Assembly: GCF_028830055.1 (NCBI RefSeq)
Contig: NZ_CP101655.1
Coordinates: 3,065,382 to 3,129,381 of the forward strand
Reading direction: 5' to 3'
DNA from: Pseudomonas serboccidentalis
GTDB lineage: Bacteria > Pseudomonadota > Gammaproteobacteria > Pseudomonadales > Pseudomonadaceae
Length of the DNA stretch: 64,000 bases
Part shown: positions 1-14,604 of the stretch, piece by piece
Layout of the letters: each line of letters starts with the position of its first letter
Numbering within the stretch: the stretch's first letter is position 1
Translations under genes and position numbers: made by a program
The notes under the pieces: generated by a model
Told to the model about the DNA's origin: nothing
What the model saw: only the letters and a program-made list of their open reading frames with translations
Databases searched by the model: none

Positions 1-486
1 CGTCTGGTGTTCGTGCTGGTGATCGTCGGCGCGGCAACCCTGATCGCCTTGCTCGGCCAGCACTCGTTCCTGGGTGCGTTCAAGTCGTTCATTCTGTTCC
101 TGCTGGCGTTCTTCACGCCTTGGAGCGCGATCAACCTGGTCGACTACTACTGCATCACCCGCGAGCGCTATGACGTGCCGGCGCTGGCCGACCCGAACGG
201 TCGCTACGGCCGCTGGAACCTGCTCGGGATCAGCATCTATGTGTTCGGTGTGCTGGTGCAGTTGCCGTTCATCTCCACCAAGTTCTACACCGGCCCGCTG
301 GTGGCCGCCCTCGGTGATGTGGATATCTCCTGGATCATCGGTCTGGTGCTGCCTGCGGCGCTGTATTACCTGTGCGCCAAAAAATGGCACGGCTCGGTGC
401 CTGATCAACTGATTCTGCCGGTCGAGCAGAACAGCGTTGTACCACCTGAAAAAAGTGGGCCCGGTCGCGCTGCGGCGCAGGCCTGA
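1..486 (+). CDS. NCS1-family permease, C-terminal part (probable urocanate/histidine-route transporter)
   Basis: The reading frame is open from the first base, so the gene starts upstream and only the last 161 codons are present. The visible part has about four hydrophobic helices, with a charged loop containing DYYCITRERYDVP and a polar C-terminal tail. This resembles the end of cytosine/purine permeases of the NCS1 (CodB-like) family. It sits directly before hutX, and a CodB-like gene in the hut cluster of P. fluorescens SBW25 has been described as the urocanate transporter HutTu. Import of urocanate or a related heterocycle across the inner membrane is therefore likely, but substrate assignment rests on context alone. 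Confidence 0.8.
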   Translation, partial: RLVFVLVIVGAATLIALLGQHSFLGAFKSFILFLLAFFTPWSAINLVDYYCITRERYDVPALADPNGRYGRWNLLGISIYVFGVLVQLPFISTKFYTGPLVAALGDVDISWIIGLVLPAALYYLCAKKWHGSVPDQLILPVEQNSVVPPEKSGPGRAAAQA

Positions 487-555: not shown

Positions 556-1524
556 ATGAAATCGAACAAGACCCTGCTGACTACACTGCTGTCCATGGGC
601 CTGTTGGCCAGTGCCGGCGCCACCCAGGCGGCCGGTTGGTGCGAGTCCGGCAAACCGGTGAAATTCGCTGGCCTGAACTGGGAAAGCGCCATGCTGCTGA
701 CCGACGTGCTGCAAGTGGTGCTGGAGAAAGGTTACGACTGCAAGACCGACAGCCTGCCGGGCAACTCCATCACCATGGAGAACGCCCTGAGCAGCAACGA
801 TATTCAAGTGTTCGCCGAGGAATGGGTCGGCCGCAGTGAGGTCTGGAACAAGGCCGAGAAGGCCGGCAAGGTCGTCGGTATCGGCGCCCCGATCGTTGGC
901 GCCATCGAAGGTTGGTACGTGCCGCGCTACGTGATCGAAGGCGATGCCAAACGCAAGATCGAGGCGAAAGCCCCGGACCTGAAAAACATCGCTGACCTGG
1001 GCAAATACGCAGCCATCTTCAAAGACGCTGAAGAGCCGTCCAAGGGCCGTTTCTACAACTGCCCGGCGGGCTGGACCTGCGAGCTGGACAACAGCGAAAT
1101 GCTCAAAAGCTACGGCCTGGAAAACACCTACACCAACTTCCGTCCGGGCACCGGGCCTGCGCTGGATGCGGCGGTGCTGTCGAGCTACAAGCGTGGCGAA
1201 CCGATCCTGTTCTACTACTGGTCGCCAACCCCGCTGATGGGCCAGATCGACGCGGTCAAGCTCGAAGAGAAACCGGGCGTCGACAAGACCGTGAGCATCA
1301 AGGTCGGCCTGTCGAAAACCTTCCACGAGCAAGCCCCGGAACTGGTGGCCGTGCTGGAAAAGGTCAACCTGCCGATCGACCTGCTGAACCAGAACCTGGG
1401 ACGCATGGCGAAGGAACGTATCGAGTCGCCAAAACTGGCGAAAATCTTCCTCAAGGAACATCCTGAGGTCTGGCACGCGTGGGTCAGCGACGACGCAGCC
1501 AAGAAAATCGACGCGGCCTTGTAG
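556..1524 (+). CDS. hutX: Histidine ABC transporter periplasmic binding protein (glycine-betaine/ProX type)
   Basis: The 322-residue protein starts with a classic Sec signal peptide (MKSNKTLLTTLLSMGLLASA, cleavage near TQA-AGW). The mature part is of the OpuAC/ProX class: LNWESAMLLTD near the start, then EEWVGRSEVW and FYYWSPTP, whose aromatic residues resemble the ligand cage of quaternary-amine binding proteins. The ATG at 556 is chosen over the upstream in-frame codon at 487 because AGGAG lies ten bases before it and the signal peptide starts there. It is followed by permease and ATPase genes and sits inside the hut cluster. HutXWV is known in pseudomonads as a histidine uptake system despite its betaine-family ancestry. 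Confidence 0.88.
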   Translation: MKSNKTLLTTLLSMGLLASAGATQAAGWCESGKPVKFAGLNWESAMLLTDVLQVVLEKGYDCKTDSLPGNSITMENALSSNDIQVFAEEWVGRSEVWNKAEKAGKVVGIGAPIVGAIEGWYVPRYVIEGDAKRKIEAKAPDLKNIADLGKYAAIFKDAEEPSKGRFYNCPAGWTCELDNSEMLKSYGLENTYTNFRPGTGPALDAAVLSSYKRGEPILFYYWSPTPLMGQIDAVKLEEKPGVDKTVSIKVGLSKTFHEQAPELVAVLEKVNLPIDLLNQNLGRMAKERIESPKLAKIFLKEHPEVWHAWVSDDAAKKIDAAL

Positions 1525-1593: not shown

Positions 1594-2441
1594 ATGTTTC
1601 CCGAAAGCTTTACCTTTTCCATCGCCGACTGGGTCAACGGTTGGGTCGATTCGCTGGTCACCAACTACGGTGATGTGTTCCGCCACATCTCGGACACCCT
1701 GCTGTGGGCCATCGTCAACCTAGAAGGCCTGCTGCGTGCGGCGCCGTGGTGGTTGATGCTGGCGATCGTCGGGGTGGTTGCCTGGCATGCCACGCGTAAA
1801 GTCGTGACTACCGCTGTCATCGTCGGCCTGCTGTTTCTCGTTGGCGCCGTTGGCCTGTGGGACAAGCTTATGCAAACCCTGGCGCTGATGATGGTCGCGA
1901 CGATCATTTCGGTGCTGATCGGCATACCGCTGGGGATCCTCTCGGCGCGCAGCAATCGCCTGCGTTCGGTGCTGATGCCGCTGCTCGACATCATGCAAAC
2001 GATGCCAAGTTTCGTGTACCTGATCCCGGTGCTGATGCTGTTCGGCCTGGGCAAGGTCCCGGCGATTTTCGCCACGGTGATCTACGCCGCGCCGCCGCTG
2101 ATCCGCCTGACCGATCTGGGCATTCGCCAGGTCGACGGCGAAGTGATGGAAGCGATCAACGCCTTCGGTGCCAACCGCTGGCAGCAACTGTTCGGCGTGC
2201 AACTGCCGCTGGCCCTGCCGAGCATCATGGCCGGGATCAACCAGACCACCATGATGGCCCTGTCGATGGTGGTGATCGCCTCGATGATCGGTGCCCGTGG
2301 CCTCGGTGAAGATGTGCTGGTGGGGATTCAGACCCTCAACGTTGGACGCGGCCTCGAAGCCGGTCTGGCGATCGTGATTCTCGCAGTGGTCATCGACCGC
2401 ATTACTCAGGCGTACGGTCGGCCACGGCATGAGGTGAGCAA

Positions 2442-2445
<4 letters not shown>
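1594..2445 (+). CDS. hutW: Histidine ABC transporter permease
   Basis: This 283-residue integral membrane protein belongs to the ProW/OpuAB family. After an amphipathic N-terminus (about 45 residues) it has six or so hydrophobic helices and the EAA-type cytoplasmic loop around EAINAFGANRWQQLFGVQLP, which docks to the ATPase. It forms the channel of the HutXWV importer in the inner membrane. The stop codon overlaps the hutV start by four bases, so the two are translationally coupled. A single permease gene implies a homodimer. The substrate (histidine) is inferred from the hut context. Confidence 0.88.
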
Positions 2446-3272
<827 letters not shown>

Positions 3273-3427: not shown

Positions 3428-4951
3428 ATGTCCCAGGCTGAAAAAATCGTTATCACCGGCAGCCCCCTGCGTTGGCAGGACGTGGTCGCCGTCGCCCGTC
3501 ATGGTGCGCAACTGGAACTGTCGAGCGAGACCTGGGCGCGCATCGAAAACGCTCAGGGTATTGTCCAGCGCATCGTCGAAAGCGGCGAACGTGCCTATGG
3601 CGTCAACACCGGTCTGGGCGGCTTGTCCAACGTTTCGCTGAAAGACGAGCAACTGAGCCAACTGTCGCGCAACACCTTGCTCAGCCACGCCTGCGGCGTC
3701 GGCCCGGTACTGCCCGATGAGCAAACGCGCGCGATCATCTGCGCGGCGATCCACAACTACAGCCACGGCAAATCCGGCATTCATCGCCGCGTGGTCGAAG
3801 GCCTGCTGGTGCTGCTCAATCGCGGCATCACCCCGCAGGTTCCATCGCAAGGTTCGGTGGGTTACCTGACCCACATGGCGCACATCGGCATCGCGCTGCT
3901 GGGCGTGGGCAATGTCAGTTATCGCGGGCAAATCACCTCGGCGCAACAGGCGCTGGCCGAAGACGGTCTACAACCGGTGCAACTGGGGGCGAAGGACGGT
4001 TTGTGCCTGGTCAACGGCACGCCGTGCATGACTGGCCTCAGCTGCCTGGCCATTGCCGATGCGACGCGGCTGGTGCAATGGGCCGATGTGATCGGCGCCA
4101 TGAGCTTCGAAGCCCAGCGCGGCCAGATCGCCGCGTTCGACGCTGAGATCATCGCGCTCAAGCCGCACCCGGGCATGCAGCAGGTCGGTAGTAATCTGCG
4201 CGCGTTGCTCGATGGCAGCGAAGTGATCGCGGCGAGCAAAGGCATTCGCACTCAGGATGCGCTGAGCATCCGTTCGATCCCGCAGGTGCATGGTGCCGCG
4301 CGCGATCAACTGGATCACGCAATCAGGCAGGTCGAAGCCGAACTCAACGGCTGCACCGACAACCCGTTACTGCTGGGCACGCCGGAGAATTTCCGGGTGA
4401 TGTCGCAGGCCAATCCGCACGGCCAGTCAGTGGCGATGGCGGCGGACTTGCTGGCGATTGCCATGGCCGAAATCGGCTCGATCGCCGAGCGTCGGCTGGA
4501 TCGACTGGTCAACCCGCACGTCAGCGGTTTGCCGGCGTTTCTGGTGGCCAATCCGGGGGTGAACTCCGGGATGATGATCGTGCAATACGTCGCCGCCTCG
4601 CTGTGCGCGGAAAACCGTCAACTGGCGCAACCGGCGGTGCTCGACAACTACGTCACCTCGGGGCTGCAGGAAGACCACCTGAGCATGGGCACCACTGCGG
4701 CGCTGAAGCTGCACCGCGCCCTGGAAAACTGCACGCAGATCCTCGCCATCGAGTACCTGCTGGCGGCGCAGGCCTTTGAATTCCTCAAGGACCAGCGCTT
4801 TGGCGCAGGCACTGACCGGGCGTGGCGACTGCTGCGCGAAACCGTCCCGGCCTACGATCAGGACCGCTGGCTGGCACCGGATATCGCTGCCGCCGCAAGC
4901 GTGTTGAAAAACCCGAATTCGCTGCACAACGTATTACCGAATCTGCACTGA
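3428..4951 (+). CDS. hutH1: HutH paralogue lacking the MIO triad (HutH1; probably not a normal histidase)
   Basis: The 507-residue protein aligns along its full length with the histidine ammonia-lyase encoded just downstream, but the Ala-Ser-Gly that cyclises into the MIO electrophile is missing. Where the family has [15 protein letters not shown] this protein reads GSVGYLTHMAH (bases 3851-3883), an in-frame loss of three residues with replaced neighbours. In P. putida histidase numbering, Tyr53, His83, Asn195, Gln277, Arg283 and Glu414 are kept, whereas Tyr280 is Leu and Phe329 is Pro. The frame is intact and codon use is normal, so it is not an obvious pseudogene. As I recall, two hutH copies exist in P. 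fluorescens SBW25 and only hutH2 is needed for growth on histidine. A binding, regulatory or different lyase role is possible; function unknown. Confidence 0.85.
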   Translation: MSQAEKIVITGSPLRWQDVVAVARHGAQLELSSETWARIENAQGIVQRIVESGERAYGVNTGLGGLSNVSLKDEQLSQLSRNTLLSHACGVGPVLPDEQTRAIICAAIHNYSHGKSGIHRRVVEGLLVLLNRGITPQVPSQGSVGYLTHMAHIGIALLGVGNVSYRGQITSAQQALAEDGLQPVQLGAKDGLCLVNGTPCMTGLSCLAIADATRLVQWADVIGAMSFEAQRGQIAAFDAEIIALKPHPGMQQVGSNLRALLDGSEVIAASKGIRTQDALSIRSIPQVHGAARDQLDHAIRQVEAELNGCTDNPLLLGTPENFRVMSQANPHGQSVAMAADLLAIAMAEIGSIAERRLDRLVNPHVSGLPAFLVANPGVNSGMMIVQYVAASLCAENRQLAQPAVLDNYVTSGLQEDHLSMGTTAALKLHRALENCTQILAIEYLLAAQAFEFLKDQRFGAGTDRAWRLLRETVPAYDQDRWLAPDIAAAASVLKNPNSLHNVLPNLH

Positions 4952-5067: not shown

Positions 5068-6600
5068 ATGACTGCGCTGAATCTGATTCCCGGCCAACTG
5101 AGCCTGGCCCAACTGCGTGACGTCTACCAACACCCGGTCAAGCTGACCCTCGATCACAGCGCCTGCGCGCAGATCGAGGCCAGCGTGGCTTGCGTCGAGC
5201 AGATCCTCGCCGAGAATCGTACTGCCTACGGCATCAATACCGGTTTCGGCCTGCTGGCCTCGACCCGCATCGCCAGCGAAGACCTGGAAAACCTGCAGCG
5301 TTCGCTGGTGCTGTCCCACGCCGCCGGTGTCGGTCAGCCGATCAGCGATGATCTGGTGCGCCTGATCATGGTGCTCAAAGTGAATAGCCTCAGCCGTGGG
5401 TTCTCCGGCATCCGCCGCGTGGTGATCGATGCGCTGATCGCGCTGATCAACGCCGAGGTTTATCCGCACATTCCGTTGAAAGGTTCCGTAGGCGCTTCGG
5501 GTGACCTCGCGCCATTGGCGCACATGTCGCTGGTGCTGCTGGGCGAAGGCAAGGCGCGCTACAAGGGCGAGTGGATGGAAGCCACCGAAGCGCTGAAAGT
5601 CGCCGGCCTGACCCCGCTGACCCTGGCCGCGAAAGAAGGCCTGGCGCTGCTCAACGGCACTCAGGTGTCCACCGCGTTTGCTCTGCGTGGTCTGTTTGAG
5701 GGTGAAGATCTGTTCGCTGGCGCATTGGCGCTGGGCGGTCTGACTGTTGAAGCGGTACTCGGTTCGCGTTCGCCGTTCGACGCACGCATTCATGCTGCTC
5801 GTGGCCAGAAAGGCCAGATCGACGCCGCTGCGGCCTACCGCGATCTGCTCGGTGAGCGCAGCGAAGTCTGCGACTCGCACCAGAACTGCGAAAAGGTCCA
5901 GGACCCGTACTCGTTGCGTTGCCAGCCACAAGTCATGGGCGCCTGCCTGACCCAGTTCCGTCAGGCTGCTGAAGTACTCGCTGTCGAAGCCAACGCAGTG
6001 TCTGATAACCCGCTGGTCTTCGCCGCAGAAGGCGATGTGATTTCCGGCGGTAACTTCCACGCCGAACCGGTGGCGATGGCCGCTGACAACATGGCCCTGG
6101 CCATCGCCGAAATCGGCTCGCTGAGCGAACGCCGCATCTCGCTGATGATGGACAAGCACATGTCGCAACTGCCGCCGTTCCTGGTGGCCAATGGCGGCGT
6201 CAACTCGGGCTTCATGATCGCCCAGGTGACGGCTGCCGCACTGGCCAGCGAGAACAAGGCGCTGTCCCATCCGCATTCGGTCGACAGCCTGCCGACCTCG
6301 GCCAACCAGGAAGACCACGTATCCATGGCCCCGGCCGCCGGCAAGCGTCTGTGGGAAATGGCCGAGAACACCCGCGGGATTCTCGCGGTGGAATGGCTGG
6401 CGGCGGTGCAGGGGCTGGACCTGCGCAACGGCCTGAAGACCTCGGCCAAGCTGGAACAGGCGCGGGCGATTCTGCGCAAGGAAGTGCCGTTTTACGAGAA
6501 AGACCGCTTCTTTGCGCCGGACATCAATGCGGCAACCGAGCTGTTGGCTTCACGGTGCCTGACCGAACTGGTTCCGGCGAAGTTGCTGCCTAGCCTGTGA
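5068..6600 (+). CDS. hutH: Histidine ammonia-lyase (histidase)
   Basis: It catalyses non-oxidative deamination of L-histidine to urocanate and ammonia, the first step of histidine catabolism, in the cytoplasm. The 510-residue length matches P. putida histidase. The MIO motif [15 protein letters not shown] is complete (bases 5482-5526). The other active-site segments are present: [45 protein letters not shown] and NQEDHVSM. A good ribosome site, CAGGAG, precedes the ATG by eight bases. The gap to the upstream paralogue is 116 bases, too short for the histidine permease gene hutTh that I recall between the two copies in SBW25. Confidence 0.97.
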
Positions 6601-6701: not shown

Positions 6702-7907
6702 ATGAAAACCCTCTGGCAACACTGCCACGTCGCAACCATGGCGCAGGGCGTCTACTCGATCATCGAGGATGCGGCCATCGTGACGTCTGGTGCGCACATC
6801 GAGTGGATCGGTCCGCGCCATCAATTGCCCTCCGGCGAATACCCGGCGGTCAACGACCTGCAAGGCGCGTGGGTCACCCCCGGCTTGATCGACTGCCACA
6901 CCCATACGGTGTTCGGCGGCAACCGTAGCGGTGAATTCGAGAAACGCCTGCAAGGCGTCAGCTACGCTGAAATCGCCGCGCAGGGCGGCGGCATCGCCAG
7001 CACCGTGCGCGCCACTCGTGAAGCGACCGAGGACGAGTTGTTCGCCAGCGCCGCCAAACGTCTGAAAAGCCTGATGCGCGACGGTGTGACCACGGTCGAG
7101 ATGAAGTCCGGCTACGGTCTGGACTTGGCCAGCGAACGCAAGATCCTGCGGGTCATCCGTCGTCTGCAGAAAGAGTTGCCGATCAGCGTGCGCAGCACCT
7201 GTCTGGCCGCCCACGCGTTGCCGCCGGAGTACAAGGATCGCGCTGACGCTTACATCGATCACATCTGCGCCGAGATGCTGCCGGCTCTGGCCGCCGAAGG
7301 GCTGGTCGACGCCGTGGATGCGTTCTGTGAATACCTGGCGTTTTCGCCGGAGCAGGTAGAGCGGGTGTTCATCACCGCACAGAAACTCGGTCTGCCGGTG
7401 AAGCTGCACGCCGAACAATTGTCGTCGCTGCATGGCTCCAGTCTGGCCGCGCGGTATCACGCGTTGTCCGCCGATCATCTGGAATTCATGGACGAAGACG
7501 ACGTCATTGCGATGGCCAAATCCGACACCGTCGCGGTGCTGCTGCCCGGCGCGTTCTACTTCCTGCGCGAAACACAGCTACCGCCGATGGACGCCCTGCG
7601 CAAGCACAAGGTGAAAATCGCCATCGCCAGCGACCTCAACCCTGGCACTTCGCCGGCGCTGTCGTTGCGCCTGATGCTGAACATGGCCTGCACCTGCTTC
7701 CGCATGACCCCGGAAGAGGCCCTGGCCGGTGCGACCATTCATGCCGCACAAGCGCTGGGCATGGCTGATACGCATGGCTCGCTGGAAGTCGGCAAGGTCG
7801 CGGATTTCGTCGCCTGGCACATCGATCGTCCGGCGGATCTGGCCTACTGGCTCGGTGGTGATCTGGACAAACGCGTCGTGCGTCACGGCGTTGAATCAAG
7901 TCTGTAG
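6702..7907 (+). CDS. hutI: Imidazolonepropionase
   Basis: This 401-residue amidohydrolase-fold enzyme hydrolyses 4-imidazolone-5-propionate to N-formimino-L-glutamate, the third step of histidine degradation. Metal-binding HTHTVFGG (residues about 66-73) follows the usual beta-sandwich N-terminus. The family segments [25 protein letters not shown] and [11 protein letters not shown] supply further metal and substrate ligands. ATG 6702 is preceded by GAGACTAAGGG. It ends ten bases before hutG, consistent with one transcript. The second enzyme of the route, urocanase (HutU), is not in the window and presumably lies upstream. Confidence 0.95.
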
Positions 7908-7917
7908 GAGAGCGGTT

Positions 7918-8721
7918 GTGAAAAAGGTTCTGAGTTTCAAACAAGGTCGTGTGCCGCTGCTGATCAGCATGCCGCATGCCGGTTTGCGTCTGACGCCTGC
8001 TGTCGAAGCCGGGCTGATTGCGGACGCGAAAAGCCTGCCGGACACCGACTGGCACATTCCACAGCTCTACGATTTTGCCGAGGCGCTGGGCGCCAGCACG
8101 TTGGCCGCCGAGTACTCGCGATTCGTCATTGACCTGAACCGCCCGTCCGACGACAAGCCGTTGTACACCGGCGCGACCACCGGGCTGTACCCGGCGACGC
8201 TGTTTGACGGCATCCCGTTGTTCCGCGAAGGGCACGAGCCGTCGAAAGCAGAACGCGCGGCCTATCTGGAACAGATCTGGACGCCGTATCACCGCACCCT
8301 GCAGCAAGAGCTGGCGCGGCTGAAGGCTGAATTCGGCTACGCGCTGCTGTTCGACGCGCACTCGATCCGCTCGATCATCCCGCACCTGTTCGACGGCAAA
8401 CTGCCGGACTTCAACCTCGGCACCTTCAACGGTGCCAGTTGTGATCCGCAGCTTGCGACGCAACTGGAAGCCATCTGCGCGCGCCACGGCAACTACAGCC
8501 ATGTGCTCAACGGACGCTTCAAGGGCGGCCACATCACCCGCCATTACGGCAACCCGGCCGAGAACATCCACGCCGTGCAACTGGAGCTGTGCCAGAGCAC
8601 CTACATGGAAGAGTTCGAACCGTTCCGCTACCGCGCCGATCTGGCGGAGCCAACGCGGGTGGTGCTCAAGGAATTGCTGCAAGGTTTCCTCGCCTGGGGC
8701 GAGAGCCACTACGCGCGATAA
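7918..8721 (+). CDS. hutG: N-formylglutamate deformylase
   Basis: The 267-residue protein belongs to the FGase family (N-formylglutamate amidohydrolase). It releases formate from N-formyl-L-glutamate, the last step of the five-step pseudomonad histidine route, which goes through HutF rather than direct formimino hydrolysis. Visible family segments are SMPHAGLRL near the N-terminus, DTDWHIPQLYDF, and FDAHSIRSIIP. GTG 7918 is chosen as the start because TAGGAG precedes it by seven bases and the conserved protein starts there. The same frame is open further upstream, but only as an antisense-free overlap with hutI. It is the last gene of the visible hut run. Confidence 0.94.
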   Translation: MKKVLSFKQGRVPLLISMPHAGLRLTPAVEAGLIADAKSLPDTDWHIPQLYDFAEALGASTLAAEYSRFVIDLNRPSDDKPLYTGATTGLYPATLFDGIPLFREGHEPSKAERAAYLEQIWTPYHRTLQQELARLKAEFGYALLFDAHSIRSIIPHLFDGKLPDFNLGTFNGASCDPQLATQLEAICARHGNYSHVLNGRFKGGHITRHYGNPAENIHAVQLELCQSTYMEEFEPFRYRADLAEPTRVVLKELLQGFLAWGESHYAR

Positions 8722-12789: not shown

Positions 12790-14604
12790 GTGATTGTTAG
12801 TCCCTGTAATGCAGCAAAAATGTCTGCCAAACGCATGCGAAGTGCCCTGGTAGCGGGTTCGGCGCTCCTGTGCCTGCTCAGCGCCGGCCAGCTTTGGGCG
12901 TTCAATCTTGACGATGTATCGGCCAAGGCTAAAGAGCTGGCCGGGCAGAAGTTCGAAGCCCCGCGCAGCAACCTGCCGAACGAATTCCGTGACATGAAGT
13001 TCGCGGACTATCAGAAAATCCGCTTCCTCACCGAAAAGGCTGAGTGGGCCGATCAGAAGACTCCGTTCAAGCTGTCCTTCTATCACCAGGGCATGCACTT
13101 CGATACGCCGGTGAAAATCAACGAAATCACGGCGAACACCGTCGAAGAGATCAAATACGATCCGACCCGCTTTGATTTCGGCGACCTGAAGTTCGATCCG
13201 AAGGCCACTGAGCAACTGGGCTACGCCGGTTTCCGTGTGCTGTACCCGATCAACAAGGCCGACAAGCAAGACGAAATCATGACCATGCTCGGCGCGAGTT
13301 ACTTCCGCGTCGTTGGCAAGGGTCACACCTACGGTCTGTCGGCCCGTGGCCTGGCGATCGATACCGCGCTGCCGTCGGGTGAAGAATTCCCGCGTTTCCG
13401 CGAGTTCTGGATTCAGCAGCCAAAGCCGGGCGACAAGCACCTGGTGATCTTCGCCCTGCTTGATTCGCCGCGTGCCACCGGTGCCTACCGTCTGATCCTG
13501 CGCCCGGGCAGCGACACCATTGTCGACGTCAAGGCGCAGATGTTCCTGCGGGACAAGGTCGGCAAACTGGGCATCGCCCCGTTGACCAGCATGTTCCTGT
13601 TCGGCGCCAACCAGCCGTCGAAAGTCCTCAACTACCGTCGTGAGCTGCATGACTCCAGCGGTCTGTCGATCCATGCCGGCAACGGCGAGTGGATCTGGCG
13701 TCCGCTGAACAACCCGAAACACCTGGCCGTGAGCAACTTCAGCGTCGAGAACCCGCGTGGTTTCGGCCTGCTGCAACGTGGCCGCGACTTCAGCCACTAC
13801 GAAGACCTCGACGATCGCTACGACAAGCGCCCAAGCGCCTGGATCGAGCCGAAGGGCGAGTGGGGCAAGGGCTCCGTGGATCTGGTAGAGATTCCGACCG
13901 CTGACGAAACCAACGACAACATCGTTGCGTTCTGGAGCCCGGAAACCATGCCGGAGCCGGGCAAGCCTCTGGACTTCGCCTACCGCATGCACTGGACCAT
14001 GGATGAATCGGCGATTCACGCCCCCGACAGCGCTTGGGTCAAGCAGACCCTGCGTTCGACCGGTGACGTCAAACAGTCGAACCTGATCCGTCAGCCAGAC
14101 GGCAGCGTCGCTTACCTGGTCGACTTCGAAGGTCCATCGCTGGCGGCCCTGGCCCCGGATGCCGACGTACGCAGTCAGGTCAGCGTTGGCGATAACGCCG
14201 AGCTGGTCGAGAACAGCGTGCGCTACAACCCGGAAACCAAAGGCTGGCGCCTGACCCTGCGGATGAAGATCAAGGACGCGAGCAAGGCGACCGAGATGCG
14301 TGCCGCCCTGGTTCAGCCAGCAGTAACCGCTGATCTGGCCAAGTCTTCGGTGCCGGCGTCCAACTCGTCCGTCGCCAAGGCCGACAAGATTGCCGCCAAG
14401 CAACAAGAGAAAATCGACAAGGAAGCGAAGGCCGCCGAAGCCAAACAGGTCGACGCCAAGCCAGTTGCAGATGCCAAGGACAAGGCGACCAAAGACGCCA
14501 AGCAGCCAGTCGCTGCGAACGCGGCCCCAGCCACACCGGAATCGGCACCGACTGAAGAAGTCCTGACCGAGACCTGGAGCTATCAGTTGCCTGCCGATGA
14601 GTAA
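12790..14604 (+). CDS. opgG: Glucan biosynthesis protein G (osmoregulated periplasmic glucans)
   Basis: Periplasmic OpgG acts on the beta-glucan backbone made by OpgH and is needed for branched osmoregulated periplasmic glucans. A signal peptide (about residues 11-37, ending GQLWA-FNL) precedes the family core. Core segments include [30 protein letters not shown] and the long beta-sandwich domain. GTG 12790 is chosen because GAGGG lies just before it; ATG 12820 is an alternative. At 604 residues it is about 90 longer than enterobacterial OpgG. The excess is a Lys/Ala/Pro-rich stretch at about residues 500-590, placed before a final TETWSYQLP segment. It overlaps opgH by eight bases. Confidence 0.93.

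Follow-up and report, generated by a model that had tools for sequence, protein, structure and literature searches.

Two histidase-like genes stand side by side in the hut operon of Pseudomonas serboccidentalis, and the product of the first, HutH1, lacks the residues that form the catalytic MIO electrophile of histidases. Zhang and Rainey in 2007 reportedly regarded one copy of hutH, of the two present, as non-functional. The question raised by this locus is what HutH1 is kept for. We have examined it in a stretch of 64,000 nucleotides (contig NZ_CP101655.1, positions 3,065,382 to 3,129,381), here called the window, and compared it with its relatives in other genomes.

The hutH1 gene and its altered active site

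The window opens inside the operon. A divergent hutF, then hutC, hutD, hutU and hutTu precede it, the last ending within the window, and from hutTu on the order is hutX, hutW, hutV, hutH1, hutH2, hutI and hutG (Table 1). The hutTu-hutXWV-hutH1 module described in Pseudomonas fluorescens SBW25 is alike in gene content and order, as far as the accessible part of that paper goes (PMC8871633). In the same part, the SBW25 hutH1 is termed a histidase that is dispensable on histidine, with no other substrate given, while HutXWV is reported to have a part in histidine uptake and HutC to respond to urocanate (PMC8871633).

Table 1. Genes of the hut operon in the window and codons of the altered sites in hutH1 (positions counted from the first letter of the window).
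Feature	Position	Strand	Remark
hutTu, 3' part, Transp_cyt_pur-type permease (from cluster 11)	1..486	+	gene starts 989 bases ahead of the window; Pfam family taken from the L153 homologue
hutX, substrate-binding protein, glycine-betaine (OpuAC) family	556..1524	+	reading frame open from 487
hutW, choline/glycine-betaine-type permease	1594..2445	+	
hutV, ATPase, betaine/proline/choline family	2442..3272	+	
hutH1	3428..4951	+	507 aa, histidase fold at full length, MIO triad absent
GSVGYLTHMAH codons (residues 142-152, MIO site)	3851..3883	+	Tyr146 in place of HutH ASGD
Leu279 codon	4262..4264	+	counterpart of P. putida HAL Tyr280
Pro330 codon	4415..4417	+	counterpart of P. putida HAL Phe329
hutH2, canonical histidase with ASG (MIO)	5068..6600	+	
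hutI, imidazolonepropionase	6702..7907	+	
hutG, N-formylglutamate deformylase	7918..8721	+	start from homologue; frame open further upstream

The reading frame of hutH1 runs from ATG to stop with no internal stops. In the alignment with HutH2, to which the protein is 39% identical, the four residues ASGD give way to a single tyrosine, a loss of three residues with the frame kept. The pocket residues that we take to be Tyr53, His83, Asn195, Gln277, Arg283 and Glu414 in Pseudomonas putida histidase (HAL) are retained as Y57, H87, N196, Q276, R282 and E415, and the counterparts of Tyr280 and Phe329 are Leu279 and Pro330; the numbering of these two also appears in the PDB titles of solved HAL mutants (Y280F, F329A and F329G). 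A preliminary description of the locus had portrayed HutH1 in just this manner, as a full-length histidase homologue without MIO, with the triad replaced in frame, two further residues changed, six retained and a complete HutH beside it, and the length of the frame, the alignment and the fold match bear this out in every part.

Automatic annotation gives a different name. The NCBIfam equivalog for HutH (TIGR01225) calls HutH1 a histidase despite the missing catalytic triad, at 542.1 bits against a cut-off of 539.15, with HutH2 at 730.8 bits. A Foldseek search placed the predicted structure on HAL (PDB 1gkj) with a TM-score of 0.92 and 40% identity, a full-length histidase fold, for a single-subunit model with a pLDDT of 90.5 overall but low confidence in the active-site loops, with 69 at residues 141-150 and 54 at residues 411-420. 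The P. putida enzyme (1b8f/1gkj) thus shares fold, length and six pocket residues with HutH1; it differs in its ASG triad and MIO, in Tyr280 and Phe329, and in belonging to another clade. Both the Ala-Ser-Gly triad and the Tyr280 and Phe329 pair, by which MIO-dependent histidases are recognized, are missing from HutH1, and on its sequence we do not admit it to that group. Tyr387, considered as a special residue of HutH1, was dropped because the solved canonical histidase of an archaeon (7tqr) also carries tyrosine at that position.

Conservation and the MIO-less clade

A match of HutH1 grade (E below 1e-130) was found in 208 of 298 Pseudomonas genomes, the window's own included and one of them, in G250, belonging to a sister group; by score, the other 90 genomes were without one. 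GSVGY was read at the MIO site in all 50 HutH1-grade loci (L005-L054) taken from the 207 other carriers, which rules out a sequencing error or a local deletion. Against the 29 nearest loci, the dN/dS of HutH1 ranged from 0.039 to 0.096 with a median of 0.064, far from 1; the corresponding median for HutH2, over the part present in those 29 loci, was 0.024, with one outlier of 0.34. Conservation of the motif and purifying selection were among the points on which the preliminary description had asked for a check, and its view that the gene has been kept for another task finds good support in the low dN/dS, the separate clade and the retention of the new signature. Judged by these comparisons, HutH1 is no decaying copy of the neighbouring HutH. 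Its origin as a recent duplicate of HutH2 was rejected on the identity of 39-40% and the separate clade.

A profile search for diverged relatives yielded at least 590 confirmed places in named genomes, the best 80 of which were analysed. These best 80 of at least 590 came from Burkholderia, Paraburkholderia, Rhizobium, Neorhizobium, Mesorhizobium, Sinorhizobium, Phyllobacterium, Labrys, Kaistia, Nitrospirillum, Gluconobacter, Leisingera, Pantoea, Prodigiosinella, Pseudomonas and several MAGs. Tyr146, His149 and Leu279 are retained in 80 of the best 80, as are the older residues Tyr57, His87, Gln276, Arg282 and Glu415, and Asn196 is found in 79. The conservation of Tyr146 and His149 is partly built in, one of the two search patterns containing both; 32 of the 80 loci (L115, L151, L165 and 29 with HN there) lie outside that pattern, yet both residues are present. 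In a quick tree of 54 rows with the MIO-loop columns left out, 29 of 30 MIO-less rows formed one clade (SH-aLRT 92, not starred) and 18 canonical HutH proteins stood apart from it (SH-aLRT 95), with the protein of locus L055 placed elsewhere. HutH1 is a member of a separate MIO-less clade with relatives in other classes.

The protein that fell elsewhere, encoded at L055 (1501-2946, + strand) and L094 in genome G276, is a second MIO-less histidase-like protein, with GSVGYLGPEGH. It resembles HutH1 in the GSVGY at the MIO site and in the opine-type ABC genes upstream, and is unlike it in keeping Tyr280 and Phe329, in having no His149 and in its position outside the HutH1 clade. A Rieske oxygenase and a reductase are encoded upstream of L055. 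A class-wide search with L055, not HutH1, as the query gave matches in 50 of 274 genomes, and all 30 loci examined encoded an SGDL-type enzyme, one of them being the HutH2 of the window itself.

Two further settings deserve mention. In the sister group in Pseudomonas (L054/L095 and L098), the MIO-less lyase adjoins a 471-residue protein, a ketopantoate-reductase-like protein (so named in L095) and a protein of 80 residues; the 471-residue neighbour in L098 had no matches in Pfam or NCBIfam, and the setting, which is not hut, is possibly biosynthetic. In Rhizobium leguminosarum strain Norway, a MIO-less lyase cassette with an opine-type importer (L119) is borne on plasmid pRLN2.

Importers and other neighbours of the MIO-less lyases

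Importer genes accompany the MIO-less lyases in most loci. In 61 of the best 80 MIO-less loci of at least 590, the gene immediately upstream, on the same strand, encodes an ABC ATPase, as opposed to 1 of 33 canonical HutH loci (kept from 36; three without an open frame with SGDL were dropped); such a gene is missing from that place in the remaining 19 of the best 80. The gap is at most 8 bases in 15 of the 61, or in 16 with overlap counted. The sole canonical locus with an upstream ATPase, L060, belongs to a hut operon without HutH1 in genome G250. These counts rest on a simple in-house gene caller, with cluster names based on few tested members. In a separate count of 50 Pseudomonas loci, the ATPase was upstream in 43, an undercount, as L035, L041 and L046, which were among the seven loci scored without it, do have one; no ABC ATPase was found beside L051-L053, which adjoin HutH. 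HutH2 lay downstream in 35 of these 50 loci, a number that may be low, with some loci likely left unturned.

The type of importer varies. Among the best 80 of at least 590, a HutX-type importer accompanies 20 of the 21 Pseudomonas HutH1 loci, all 21 of which have the ATPase, and an opine-type binding protein is found in 38 of 57 other loci and in both enterobacterial ones. Opine-type importers also occur with Pseudomonas orthologues at about 70% (L202, L203 and L204). Across the 298 Pseudomonas genomes, HutX and HutH1 are found together in 195, HutH1 alone in 13, HutX alone in 3 and neither in 87, counts made without correction for ancestry. In 68 of the best 80 loci of at least 590 one or more hut-type genes lie nearby, and in 12 none does; in L167 and L177 the order is X-W-V-HutH1 with no further hut gene within the stretch examined. 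Likewise, the locus of Sinorhizobium meliloti (L115) has the HutX-W-V-lyase order of the window. The HutXWV system of S. meliloti also carries betaines.

The importer genes are also found without HutH1. HutC-HutXWV is retained in G043 and G249, and in the hut operon of G250 HutW-HutV stands next to an ASG-type HutH. In G043 and G249 a gene for 381 residues follows HutC-HutX-HutW-HutV in place of HutH1 (L208, 10362-11507, and L209, 10034-11179), and the one in L208 scores above the cut-off for 'PheS-related mystery ligase SrmL' of NCBIfam (366 vs 300 bits).

What these importers bind can be approached through their families. HutX belongs to the OpuAC glycine-betaine family and its closest solved relatives are glycine-betaine-binding proteins. 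Two of its tryptophans, hand-counted on the alignment, fall on Trp140 and Trp188 of ProX, which cage the quaternary ammonium there; they are kept in 22 of 22 HutX sequences, although such betaine-family residues do not fix the identity of the ligand. The opine-type binding protein of L101 scores 197-202 bits with nopaline- and octopine-binding proteins vs 97 bits with a histidine-binding protein. By family, both importer types would suit an amino acid substituted at the alpha nitrogen.

Among the best 80 of at least 590, a flavin oxidase of one cluster is encoded near the lyase in 14 of 57 loci, all rhizobial, and a GntR-type regulator of the HutC cluster in 45 of 57. The oxidase of L122 passes the cut-off for N-methyl-L-tryptophan oxidase (414 vs 257) and the regulator of L101 that for HutC (277.6 vs 220). 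A gene of the same N-methyl-L-tryptophan-oxidase type (415 bits) stands first in a Pseudomonas cassette that encodes a 70% HutH1 orthologue (L202, G120). Together, neighbours of the N-methyl-oxidase and HutC types suggest that N-methyl amino acids are imported and that urocanate is the likely product. Upstream of the opine-type importer and HutH1 orthologue in L203 lies a HalD-family gene (2OG-Fe(II) oxygenase type; 13224-14009, - strand), which is flanked on its opposite side by a gene for an OprD-type porin.

Candidate reactions of HutH1

Ergothionase, a lyase with the HAL fold, offers a parallel to HutH1: it lacks MIO and, in the accessible part of the source, is described as releasing trimethylamine from ergothioneine (PMC13405746). 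The HutH1 model superposes on the Treponema denticola enzyme (6s7j) with a TM-score of 0.90 at 29% identity. The two share the HAL fold, the absence of MIO, the change of Tyr280 to leucine and other pocket residues (6s7j/6s7q); the Tyr280 region reads QDALSIR in HutH1, QDPLSFR in 6s7j and QDPLSLR in L193-L195. They differ at the MIO site, which is GSVGY in HutH1 but SSIGE-GD in 6s7j and GSIGC-AD in ergothionase-like proteins, in their partner genes and in the tree. Of 299 genomes of the phylum, 4 have a thiourocanate hydratase (NF058530) above the cut-off, and in three of these an ergothionase-like lyase with GSIGC-AD and QDPLSLR lies about 4 kb away; in the fourth (L196, G839), which has ABC importer genes upstream, no histidase-like gene was found in 18 kb. 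HutH1 is about 25% identical to the lyases of these clusters, and the tree, from which 6s7j was left out, keeps it apart from the ergothionase-like proteins, whose branch is very long. By analogy, then, HutH1 is an enzyme that would work like ergothionase, yet no member of that group on the tests made. HutH1, 6s7j and the three ergothionase-like proteins all combine the loss of MIO with leucine in place of Tyr280; the L055 protein lost MIO and kept Tyr280.

Because the catalytic group has been lost and the gene is nevertheless conserved beside a betaine-type importer, the substrate is probably an N-methylated histidine and not histidine. On balance, we favor the hypothesis that HutH1 acts as a lyase without MIO and takes Nα-methylated histidine as its substrate, most likely converting hercynine to urocanate and trimethylamine. 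HutXWV, encoded just upstream, would import hercynine (histidine betaine, Nα-trimethylhistidine). With roles carried over from HAL, Tyr57, His87, Asn196, Gln276, Arg282 and Glu415 would jointly bind the histidine skeleton and abstract the beta proton, with the imidazole held by His87 and Glu415, the carboxylate by Arg282 and the proton taken by Tyr57. The methyl groups could fit into the space freed by the missing MIO loop and Tyr280, perhaps with Tyr146 stacking on the methylated nitrogen, and the quaternary ammonium would be a good enough leaving group without the MIO electrophile, so that trimethylamine leaves and urocanate remains. Urocanate would then be degraded by HutU, HutI, HutF and HutG, and would also release the HutC repressor.

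Several observations speak against hercynine as the substrate: the reported part of HutXWV in histidine uptake; the importer genes without HutH1 in G043, G249 and G250; the loci L051-L053 without an ATPase; the 19 loci without an upstream ATPase and the 12 without a hut-type gene among the best 80 of at least 590; and the failure of the ergothionase-like proteins to join HutH1 in the tree. Among the titles listed in searches of the openly available literature none concerned a hercynine lyase, and these searches turned up no hercynine experiment; subscription papers may contain one. We see an even chance that many Pseudomonas hut loci serve two substrates, with HutH2 handling histidine and HutXWV and HutH1 handling hercynine, and that HutH1 is the founding member of a family of MIO-free hercynine trimethylamine-lyases in proteobacteria whose loss of the electrophile was independent of that in ergothionase. 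If so, this would explain a betaine-family importer in a well-studied operon whose extra gene is described as a spare histidase, and provide a bacterial sink for hercynine, a known precursor of ergothioneine. It would also reveal a route to trimethylamine now hidden by automatic annotation as histidine ammonia-lyase, and show that the HAL fold has given up MIO repeatedly, on each occasion along with Tyr280.

A related but unlikely option is that the MIO-free lyase forms urocanate from some other Nα-substituted histidine, such as mono- or dimethylhistidine or an opine-type or sugar conjugate. The opine-type binding protein in many cassettes and the adjoining N-methyl amino-acid oxidase would fit, as oxidases of this family act on secondary amines, not on betaines. 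Secondary amines are, however, poor leaving groups without MIO, HutX is of the betaine family, and the parallel to a trimethylamine-releasing enzyme is clear.

Retention of the binding residues without MIO could also mean that HutH1 is a pseudoenzyme, either a sensor or buffer of histidine or urocanate or, with hutH2 as the next gene in the window, a partner that tunes HutH2 in mixed tetramers. We consider this quite improbable, given that conservation of Tyr146, His149 and Leu279 equals that of the original pocket residues in the best 80 of at least 590 loci and that HutH1 travels with importers even in cassettes and operons where no HutH adjoins it. In the histidase tetramer, Tyr280 and Phe329 contribute to the active sites of neighbouring subunits, and mixed HutH1/HutH2 tetramers would therefore be harmed. 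Of the tasks that the preliminary description had offered, a different reaction fits best. The heteromeric partner of HutH found no support in the neighbours of MIO-less loci or in the Pseudomonas operons, linkage being stronger to the importer than to HutH and no ASG-type HutH being present within 17 kb in two hut operons with HutH1 (L199 and L201); binding of urocanate or histidine is compatible with the data but leaves the N-methyl-related neighbours unexplained. Binding alone and a role as heteromeric partner are both less likely.

That HutH1 is a true ergothionase, splitting ergothioneine (thiol-histidine betaine) to thiourocanate, is very doubtful in spite of the matching pair of active-site losses and the superposition on 6s7j. 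The only NF058530 match in the window genome is HutU, and ergothioneine is a less likely substrate because HutU reaches 689 bits vs the 930 demanded of a thiourocanate hydratase, which is lacking there; none of the seven Pseudomonas genomes in this search reaches the cut-off. The HutC-type regulators point to urocanate, and the low identity and separate place in the tree also set HutH1 apart from ergothionase proper. A functionless relic of a duplicated histidase is hardly credible: the gene's dispensability on histidine in the accessible part of the review on SBW25 (PMC8871633), a dN/dS above that of HutH2 and the 90 genomes without it by score are set against a dN/dS of 0.04-0.10, matches in 208 of 298 genomes and a separate clade with relatives in other classes.

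The window genome has four HAL-family genes in total. Further members are L003 (G000:C1:2768904-2770409) and L004 (3145059-3146411), whose MIO sites carry TSG in one case and ASG in the other; the position of His83 is valine in L003, and that of Glu414 is glutamine in both.
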